Shown: piece by piece, positions 45,942-48,602 of the stretch
Layout: every line of letters starts with the position of its first letter
How positions within the stretch are numbered: the first letter of the stretch is position 1
From: Sphingomicrobium sp.
GTDB lineage: Bacteria > Pseudomonadota > Alphaproteobacteria > Sphingomonadales > Sphingomonadaceae
Assembly (NCBI GenBank): GCA_030447545.1
Contig: JAUJOV010000004.1
Span: 26,214 to 90,213, forward strand
Direction: 5' to 3'
Length of the DNA: 64,000 nt
Notes under the pieces: model-generated
Seen by the model: only the letters and a program-made list of their open reading frames with translations
The model's database searches: none
Told to the model about the DNA's origin: nothing
Program-made: the position numbers and the translations under genes

Positions 45942-46042
45942 GTCGCCCTCCCATCCGCCACCCGATTCGCAGGGGTCTTGGCAATTATATACTTGACGTA
46001 GAATAAGAGAGGACGCATAAGGGTTTCCAGAAGGAAGCCCCG

Positions 46043-46951
46043 ATGTTCGATCTAACCAATCCGATTTTCCAAGATGCCGACAAAGCCCGCGAGCATCTGG
46101 AGAGCATCAACTGGCCCAACGGCCCGTTCTGCCCGCACTGTGGCGAGACAGAGAACGTGCATCGCCTCCAGGGCAAGTCGCACCGCGCCGGCCTCATCCA
46201 ATGCAATTCGTGCCTGAAGAACTTCACCGTCACAGTCGGCACCGTGTTCGAGCGCTCCAAGATCTCGCTCAATAAGTGGATGCTCGCCACCTACCTGCTA
46301 GCCTCCAGCAAGAAGGGCATCAGCGCGCATCAAATCCACCGCATGCTTGGCGTCACCTACAAGACGGCGTGGTTCATGATGCACCGCGTCCGTGAGGCCA
46401 TGAAGGACGATGGTTCTCCGCTCGGCGGCCCTGGCCAAGTGATCGAGAGCGACGAAGTGATCGTTGGCGGCAAGAAGAAGCGCCGCTTGTCGGGCAAGGT
46501 CGCGCCGAAGAAAAAGGTCGTGACGCTCGTCGAGCGCGGCGGTCGCGCCCGTTCGTTCCATATCACGCACATTGACCATACGAACATTCGCGCCGCGCTG
46601 GTCACGAACTGCCACCGCTCGTCGCACCTGCGCACGGACGATGCGCGCTTCTACAATCGCATTGGCGAAGAGTTCGCCAGCCATGAAACCACGCTGCACT
46701 CAAACCGCGAGTTCAGCCGTGGCGACGGCAACCACAGCAACACCGCCGAGAACTTCTTCAGCATCCTGAAGCGCGGAGTTGTCGGCACCTACCATCACTG
46801 GTCGGCAACCCACATTCACCGCTATTTGGCCGAGTTCGATTTCCGCTACAGCAGCAAAGACGACAGCGATCGCGAGCGCGCCGACGCCATGCTCAAGGGA
46901 ATCGTCGGCAAGCGTCTCACCTATCGGCGGACTGACAAGCTCGCCGCCTAG
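46043..46951 (+). CDS. IS1595 family (ISXO2-like) transposase
   Basis: Zinc ribbon CPHCGETENVHRLQGKSHRAGLIQCNSC; KWMLATYLLASSKKGISAHQIHRMLGVTYKTAWFMMHRVREAM; DDE-type region ESDEVIVGGKKK...HSNTAENFFSILKRGVVGTYHHWS. Confidence 0.96.
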   Translation: MFDLTNPIFQDADKAREHLESINWPNGPFCPHCGETENVHRLQGKSHRAGLIQCNSCLKNFTVTVGTVFERSKISLNKWMLATYLLASSKKGISAHQIHRMLGVTYKTAWFMMHRVREAMKDDGSPLGGPGQVIESDEVIVGGKKKRRLSGKVAPKKKVVTLVERGGRARSFHITHIDHTNIRAALVTNCHRSSHLRTDDARFYNRIGEEFASHETTLHSNREFSRGDGNHSNTAENFFSILKRGVVGTYHHWSATHIHRYLAEFDFRYSSKDDSDRERADAMLKGIVGKRLTYRRTDKLAA

Positions 46952-47005
46952 CTATTACAAGCCCCCACGCTTCATTGGGAAGCCGCGCAAGCGCTGGACA
47001 CAGTA

Positions 47006-47530
47006 CTAGCCCGCAAAAAAGCATATCATCGCCAGCCCCCCGATCAGGAGTGAAACTGCCACAATGCAGAGCGCAGCAAGAACCAGACGACCGTTCTTCC
47101 CCATGATGTCTTTGTTCTCGCCCGTCTTGCGATGCAGGTCCTCCGCTAGGTCAGCGAGACGGGTCGCTTCGTCCTTCTTTGAAGCGATATCGCGCTTCCA
47201 AGCGCCCGGTCTGGTTCCCGGGTAGTTCCAGGCAACAGGGCGAGCAGCATACACGGTCAACGCTAAGGCTATCAGAAAGCCGGTCGCGCAGATGAGAGCC
47301 GTAACGGCCAGAAAGTCTTGCCGAGGGTGCGCGAGCAACAGAGCCGCCGCTCCACTCGCCAGTGCAACAATCACAGCCGACAAAAACCCGGCTAACACGA
47401 GCGCGCGTTGATCAGCTGCCAGCGCAGCCGTAAGCTGGCTCTGAAGTCTCAATTCAGCCGATTCGACGACCTCTCTTAGAAGCGCTGTGTCAGTGCTCTT
47501 GTAAGACGCAGTTTCAGTTTCAACCGACAT
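47006..47530 (-). CDS. Transposon passenger: 3-TM membrane protein with SLATT/DUF5706 (Pycsar effector)-like layout
   Basis: Hydrophobic segments ALVLAGFLSAVIVALASGAAALLLA, FLAVTALICATGFLIALALTVYAA and LVLAALCIVAVSLLIGGLAMICFFAG separated by a charged helix; family assignment is inference. Confidence 0.6.
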   Translation of the reverse strand: MSVETETASYKSTDTALLREVVESAELRLQSQLTAALAADQRALVLAGFLSAVIVALASGAAALLLAHPRQDFLAVTALICATGFLIALALTVYAARPVAWNYPGTRPGAWKRDIASKKDEATRLADLAEDLHRKTGENKDIMGKNGRLVLAALCIVAVSLLIGGLAMICFFAG

Positions 47531-47544
47531 AGGATTCCCCTAAT

Positions 47545-47709
47545 ATGGCCGCGCCCGACCCCGACGAGCGAGAAACCAAAGTTCACAAGCCGGACGACCA
47601 CGTCGAGAAGCGTCATGACGACGGGCAGGGCGACCGCTTCAACGAAGCGAATGAAGATGATGACGGCAAGTCGGATAGCGGTGGCGACGATTCTGAGAAG
47701 GATGGCTAA
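47545..47709 (+). CDS. Transposon passenger: small acidic protein (54 aa)
   Basis: MAAPDPDERETKVHKPDDHVEKRHDDGQGDRFNEANEDDDGKSDSGGDDSEKDG translated directly. Confidence 0.5.
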   Translation: MAAPDPDERETKVHKPDDHVEKRHDDGQGDRFNEANEDDDGKSDSGGDDSEKDG

Positions 47710-47846
47710 CTCTTAGCTTTCGCGGCGCGTTGCCGCCCCAGCTTGCTATCCTTGTGCGGCTTGGGAGGAGTCGCGAGCATTCGCTTGAGGGCAGCTTCCG
47801 CGCGTGCCCTGGTTTCGGCGTCGGAGTAGCCTTCATTGGGTGCCAC
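47706..47846 (-). CDS. Transposon passenger: small basic protein (46 aa, GTG start)
   Basis: VAPNEGYSDAETRARAEAALKRMLATPPKPHKDSKLGRQRAAKAKS; coherent coding composition, frame not in supplied ORF list. Confidence 0.5.
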   Translation of the reverse strand: MAPNEGYSDAETRARAEAALKRMLATPPKPHKDSKLGRQRAAKAKS

Positions 47847-48438
47847 CGTTCAACCTCCTACCGACCGAAATTCGTTCCTAGCAGGCATTGGCCACATTTG
47901 TCTTCAATGGGCGCTTATTGAAATGAGCCTTCTGGCAATCATTGCTGCCGCCGAACACATACGCTTGGAAAAAGCTTACACCCGTTACGGTGGTCAAGAC
48001 ATGCTTCCGCGGCTGAATATGGCGATCAACCTGACCAAAGAAGCAAAATGGCCCCGCCGCCTCATCAAGCGTCTTGAAGCCATACGCGCCGCGCTTCAGG
48101 GCGGGTTGGCAGATCGCCGCAATCTGTTTGTGCATGGCGTCCATGCGGCGGGAAATGCACCAGGCGAAGTGCGGCTCACCATGGTCCGCTGGAAAGGCAA
48201 AAAGCGCCACCAGTACGTGACTCTGGTGGACGCTTTGGACCTAGCCAACAAGCTCGCCATTCTCGCGCAGGAAATCCATAGCATCGACCGTGACTACGGC
48301 GTCTGGAAGTTCGGCTCCCACTACGAGGAAGACCGCGGCGAGCAAATCCGCCAAACTAAGGCCGCTACTCGGTTCATACGCGCACACAACGTTAAGCGCG
48401 CGATCAAACTGCTCCTCGCTAATCTGAAACCTTGGTGA
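47836..48438 (+). CDS. Transposon passenger: HEPN-like helical protein with RNLFVH (Rx4H) motif
   Basis: GHICLQWALIEMSLLAIIAAAEHIR...LEAIRAALQGGLADRRNLFVHGVHAAG; motif is HepT/HEPN-like; family assignment is inference. Confidence 0.6.
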   Translation: MGATVQPPTDRNSFLAGIGHICLQWALIEMSLLAIIAAAEHIRLEKAYTRYGGQDMLPRLNMAINLTKEAKWPRRLIKRLEAIRAALQGGLADRRNLFVHGVHAAGNAPGEVRLTMVRWKGKKRHQYVTLVDALDLANKLAILAQEIHSIDRDYGVWKFGSHYEEDRGEQIRQTKAATRFIRAHNVKRAIKLLLANLKPW

Positions 48439-48602
48439 TTCACCACACTGGTGAGCGCCGGCCTGTCGGCCCGAATCAGTGGCCAACTGAAACTCCTACG
48501 TCAAGTATATAATTGCCGGGGTCTTGCCACATCGGCAAAAGTGTAGGACAGAGGAAAAACCGCTCTGGTTATAAAAAAGAGCCGCAAAAGGGGGCTTTGA
48601 GG

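Follow-up and report, generated by a model that had tools for sequence, protein, structure and literature searches.

Insertion sequences (IS) are usually regarded as bare transposase genes. In the IS1595 family, transporter IS (tIS) are known from the work of Siguier, Gagnevin and Chandler (2009), which is considered here as reported in PMC3129680 and PMC8496243. The element analysed below lies in a window of 64,000 nucleotides (the whole stretch of Sphingomicrobium sp. DNA under study) and resembles these tIS in its IS1595 transposase, 8-bp target-site duplication (TSD), terminal inverted repeats (TIRs) and passengers unrelated to transposition. Measured against the tIS features given in the two later sources, the element and its relatives differ by a small core gene, a slot anchored at a start codon and defence-rich cargo. 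In the literature searched, which includes these two later sources, neither such a small gene nor the shared start codon nor the precise exchange is described.

Tn3-family transposons are known to carry toxin–antitoxin passengers; they are likewise small, and toxin-like genes, including the HEPN type, have repeatedly been gained next to a transposition-module gene (PMC7157771). In Tn3 elements, however, the passengers are two-gene pairs of the classical type II next to the resolution site, whereas in the group described here the small gene stays constant and the single gene opposite it changes. Tn7-like transposons carry defence cargo and ferry diverse systems, again with HEPN proteins among them (PMC8649781). 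The present elements differ in that they are 1.8-3.9 kb long, encode one transposase and usually carry a cargo of one or two genes.

Based on the comparisons below, we consider it probable that these elements are transporter IS with a start-codon-anchored, exchangeable cassette for defence or addiction genes, and that the small gene facing this cassette (small A) is a core gene rather than a partner-specific antitoxin.

The element in the window

Positions 45980-48517 constitute a complete IS1595-family element with about 1.5 kb of cargo (Table 1). The transposase combines an N-terminal zinc ribbon with a DDE domain, as seen in its profile matches to Zn_ribbon_IS1595 (1.4e-10), DDE_Tnp_IS1595 (1.7e-24) and NF033547 (6.9e-51), and 39 relatives all retain D137/D199/E236 as well as the four zinc cysteines. 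The family assignment is further reflected in the TIRs and the 8-bp duplication, GGGGTCTT, features shared with 106 related loci, and the genes without a role in transposition that lie between the TIRs are those of a tIS. An earlier note on this DNA, made from the letters alone, had already described a complete IS1595-family transposon with the transposase in the left ~1 kb, an exact 8-bp flanking duplication and perfect 21-bp TIRs. This description is borne out, save that the repeats, perfect as stated, are one base pair longer. The family traits that it named, 8-bp duplications and passenger genes in some subgroups, recur in the 106 related loci.

The host assembly (2.3 Mb, 70% complete) contains no other full copy, and one second, distant transposase. 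In relatives of the same genus the insertion site is uninterrupted, and lies between a DUF6456 gene and an HTH gene.

Table 1. Positions of the element's features in the window.
Feature	Position	Strand	Remark
Left target-site duplication, GGGGTCTT	45972-45979	no strand	Identical copy at 48518-48525
Left terminal inverted repeat, 22 bp	45980-46001	+	100% complementary to 48496-48517
IS1595-family transposase, 302 aa, intact, zinc ribbon and DDE domain	46043-46951	+	Domain matches, invariant residues
Predicted membrane (TM) protein, 174 aa, variable slot 1	47006-47530	-	No homologue in other elements
Acidic ORF, 54 aa, doubtful gene	47545-47709	+	No homologue found
Small A, 46-aa basic protein, GTG start after AGGAGG	47706-47846	-	Conserved core gene of the element group
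HEPN-like protein, 200 aa, motif R95-N-L-F-V-H100	47836-48438	+	Occupant of exchangeable slot 2
Head-to-head overlap of small A and HEPN-like start regions	47836-47846	no strand	Counterpart of the relatives' CATG, here CACC
Right terminal inverted repeat, 22 bp	48496-48517	-	Complement of 45980-46001
Right target-site duplication, GGGGTCTT	48518-48525	no strand	Equals left copy

All four cargo ORFs listed in the earlier note are present on alternating strands as described. Its proposal that they form one compact module is not sustained, as only small A and the HEPN-like gene have homologues in other elements. The single distant homologue of the membrane protein (L227, another genome) has no transposase nearby, and the protein was for this reason kept out of the conserved module; the acidic ORF has no homologue among the cargo of other elements. 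Both are lineage-specific or doubtful. Searches of the window cargo against Pfam, NCBIfam and PADLOC models returned no match, and thus no curated model of a known anti-phage system applies to this copy, whereas sibling elements do match such models. The direction suggested in the earlier note, an anti-phage or element-maintenance function, stands. The same note held that random, non-conserved cargo in related elements would speak against its idea; this is what is found for the large genes, while small A contradicts it. Unconserved large genes next to a conserved small one are the informative pattern.

Survey of related elements

Among 249 genomes of the order, 33 have transposase homologues; a reference-genome collection has them at 585 places, the best 80 of which were used. 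Extra loci were added to the set by searching with the small protein. The search handles were the transposase and small A because the HEPN-like family is too divergent: on its own, the HEPN-like protein gave no hits in genome contigs or plasmids. About 140 related loci were gathered in this manner, from alpha-, beta- and gammaproteobacterial hosts. Clear ends, defined as TIRs matching at at least 15 of 22 positions and TSDs at at least 7 of 8, were present at 106 of 143 transposase places, a count that includes L193 and L197, whose end assignments look spurious and were later set aside. The elements span 1.83-3.92 kb (median 2.44 kb). As none of the 106 elements with TIRs and TSD is a bare IS of about 1 kb, the carriage of cargo is the rule in this group. 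The only apparently bare relative, of about 1.0 kb and lacking a TSD, lies in a Pseudolabrys MAG (L198 4000-4990).

A conserved small core gene

Relatives of small A were found in about 100 of the about 140 loci (some 20 came from the small-A search itself, the remainder from the transposase alone), and the family is also matched in the window's own genome. They share the motif [DE]EVLRRMLxTPPKPH and a basic tail, and the predicted structure consists of one helix followed by a low-confidence tail. Identity by codon position (0.53/0.57/0.36), together with pS of 0.57 versus pN of 0.28 in closer pairs, indicates a genuine coding gene under codon-level constraint. Pfam and NCBIfam hold no family for it; among 21 members a single stray match to PatX was obtained (E=0.0068).

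Small A travels with the transposase. Distances in the two proteins co-vary, although the correlation is modest (Mantel r=0.24, P=0.0005), and small A or a second small gene, small B, stands beside 117 of the 138 transposases on the tree. The labels "A", "B" and "neither" are clustered on this tree (FastTree only), with 19 changes compared to 39.4 after shuffling and no value as low in 200 shuffles. TIRs, transposase and the ~46-aa small A make up a core that is inherited together. From this co-inheritance we infer that small A may be an accessory or regulator within the core, acting either on transposition or on the slot.

In a clade of more distant transposases, about 21 elements have small B instead of small A (L057-L072, L178, L200, L207, L208, L212). 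Small B is encoded on the plus strand and has the sequence QLDKFKELARELExDEDEARWDERLKKVAK, and the cargo of this clade includes PIN, DUF3800 and AAA/PDC-S46 genes.

The earlier note had also considered a toxin–antitoxin module. On such a reading the HEPN-like protein would be the toxin and small A its antitoxin. In keeping with this, small A sits tight against a putative toxin gene, the sibling cargo includes HEPN, PIN, ParE and SocA/Panacea types, and pairs such as HEPN-MNT do occur in Tn3 transposons (PMC7157771). Small A would then be a promiscuous antitoxin for many toxins. Still, small A directly follows the transposase, away from the slot, where an element carries a known defence gene (L111, L185, L204, L194); in the PD-Lambda-5 and NsnA-type elements it is placed in this way, apart from the cargo. 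Elsewhere it adjoins unrelated families, HNH proteins included, and it tracks the transposase tree and not its neighbour. A type II system is a specific pair inherited together; here the neighbour is swapped, and small A also occurs without a slot partner. As the neighbour varies in family or is missing altogether and small A stays with the transposase, a dedicated pair is not favoured, and we regard an addiction module of this kind as unlikely compared to a core gene facing an exchangeable slot.

The shared start codon

The gene to the right of small A is transcribed away from it. At 53 of the 99 small-A loci the two ATGs overlap by two bases in a CATG palindrome, compared to 35 of 966 control ATGs (3.6%, P=3e-49); the test required an opposite open frame of at least 80 codons, and comparable ATGs in the same cargo served as controls. 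A chance origin of the overlap is ruled out by these proportions. Among ten new loci from a class-wide search with small A, six show the overlap and eight have a transposase within 1.5 kb. Overlaps of divergent genes are reported to be strongly under-represented among prokaryotes (PMC2174442), which makes a recurrent start-codon palindrome unusual. In more than half of the small-A loci the slot begins at a codon that overlaps the small A start head to head. Three-base periodic conservation is seen on the small-A side of the junction, and the other side is not conserved.

Four earlier loci (L118, L121, L127, L131) combine small A with a CATG-linked ORF, and no full transposase was detected nearby. 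Each is a contig end, a decayed copy or a module that stands alone.

In the window, CACC is what remains of the decayed palindrome. The start of small A is GTG 47846 (the codon being the complement of 47844-47846), and the HEPN-like gene, which cannot start at the ATG, most simply begins at TTG 47836-47838 behind GGAG. With this start the N-terminal length equals that of the closest homologue, in L190. Many relatives likewise have an in-frame GTG, TTG or ATG 9 nt upstream of the CATG, so that the true overlap may be 11 bp instead of 2.

The divergent overlap may hold the slot gene at tight, low expression, because the leader of each transcript would be antisense to the start of the other. A stricter version, in which the small-A transcript acts mainly as antisense RNA on the slot mRNA at its 5' end and protein conservation is secondary, would equally draw on the overlapping start regions of opposite strands in most head-to-head cases. 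We consider it highly improbable, as conservation is at the protein level (codon position 2, pS>pN) and small A is kept where no slot gene lies opposite.

Exchange of the slot gene

Of the 12 pairs whose transposases are >80% identical, none has homologous slot-2 genes; among the remaining pairs the share is 3-10%. The elements in L051 and L147 lie in different genomes and have different TSDs. Over bases 1-1653 their identity is 94%, with a shared ATG at 1650-1652, and they carry unrelated genes thereafter. In this pair the recombination boundary is placed to within a few bases. In L110/L139 homology stops at the same ATG, and L157/L160 become similar again 12 bp ahead of the slot gene's stop. 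In diverged pairs, the boundary could merely reflect selection on small A. Taken together, these comparisons show a core and a slot that evolve separately, with the slot occupant replaced precisely at the shared start codon.

Unrelated slot proteins (L048, L137, L157, L201, L119, L206 and others) end in similar PPQSS-like C-terminal tails, which are perhaps DNA of the element's right end read as protein, or a right exchange boundary.

HEPN-like slot proteins and defence genes in sibling elements

HEPN superfamily RNases include Cas13, HepT and AbiF. Their motif, R-x4-6-H with a polar residue after R, is present in the window protein as RNLFVH. The HEPN-like profile aligns this motif with RNFYTH of Cas13b, which we take to be the catalytic HEPN1 motif, albeit in a weak match (E=0.038). 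An R[NDH]xxxH motif is found in 35 of 53 CATG-linked slot-2 proteins, versus 3.3 expected after shuffling, and an alignment of 32 HEPN-like members, the majority picked for this motif, has R95 and H100 invariant throughout. The model of the window protein (pLDDT 86.9) is mostly helical, with long helices and the motif at a helix end. Foldseek gave no match at E<0.001 against the PDB and only an unnamed protein (E=0.006) in BFVD. As the protein differs from described HEPN RNases in having neither a Pfam or PADLOC family nor a significant PDB neighbour, its HEPN identity is that of the invariant R-N-x-x-x-H motif and the weak Cas13b match; on these terms the earlier designation as a HEPN-like 200-aa protein holds. 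It is probably a ribonuclease of the abortive-infection or toxin type.

Other slot-2 occupants are HNH-like proteins and one unnamed family, and the slot-2 census in Pfam and PADLOC gave scattered weak matches only. Sibling elements with TIRs and TSDs carry known defence genes that are absent from the window copy: PD-Lambda-5_A in three cases (up to 3e-178), AbiLi (AbiL; 5e-46), PDC-S46 (5e-255), GmrSD and PD-T4-2/NsnA-type genes. SocA/Panacea, PIN, DUF3800, HEPN_MAE_28990, D12 and N6 methylases, ParE and GIY-YIG are also found in sibling cargo. The cargo would thus consist of genes that protect the host or the element, i.e. of defence or addiction genes.

The cargo could instead be selfish or neutral passengers with no defence role, with small A purely an accessory or regulator of transposition and the overlap a matter of compact packing. 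The presence of small A or B beside most transposases, with clustered labels, and the fast turnover of cargo are in keeping with this. We nonetheless judge it quite improbable: several known defence families occur in the sibling cargo, and the ORFs are long and intact with conserved R/H residues, unlike neutral passengers. Returning to the transporter IS with an exchangeable cassette, the constant transposase, mostly one tiny gene and varied cargo of the relatives suggest a miniature vehicle that moves and exchanges defence genes. A further-reaching proposal, that the CATG junction together with small A makes up a dedicated exchange slot of a non-integron kind, in which any gene inserted at the shared start codon would be expressed under restraint by the divergent small A, that the elements are a general vehicle for single-gene defence or toxin effectors across Proteobacteria, and that small A is its universal controller, is put forward as speculative.

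Most elements here thus combine a conserved, unannotated small gene with a fast-exchanged effector slot, separated by a nearly nucleotide-precise boundary. If the slot holds defence genes, the elements would offer a compact set to search for new anti-phage effectors, and the swapping of single defence genes could be tested on them as a model.

Insertion sites and element ends

The DUF6456/HTH intergenic region is an insertion hotspot, used at the identical nucleotide in about 7 of about 52 genomes of the genus and in L134. Its sequence is N5[CA]TT|GCCA beside a TTGCC-N5-GGC palindrome, and insertions occur in both orientations with different TSDs (window 45972-45979, L134, L224, L237, L238, L249, L266, L267). 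The TSDs are AT-rich in general (27% GC, versus 56% in the flanks; 103 element flanks) and are often located in the run of T that follows a terminator-like hairpin, or else are flanked by inverted repeats (e.g. L044, L070, L188, L191, L195). A clade with CCTA ends targets AGG-N8-CCT, a mirror of its own ends. Adjacent elements with the same 8-bp duplication are seen in L038 (3654-8580, AAGAGGCG) and in L171 (two elements), and L056 combines one left end with two right ends, which would fit insertion next to existing copies or a swap of ends.
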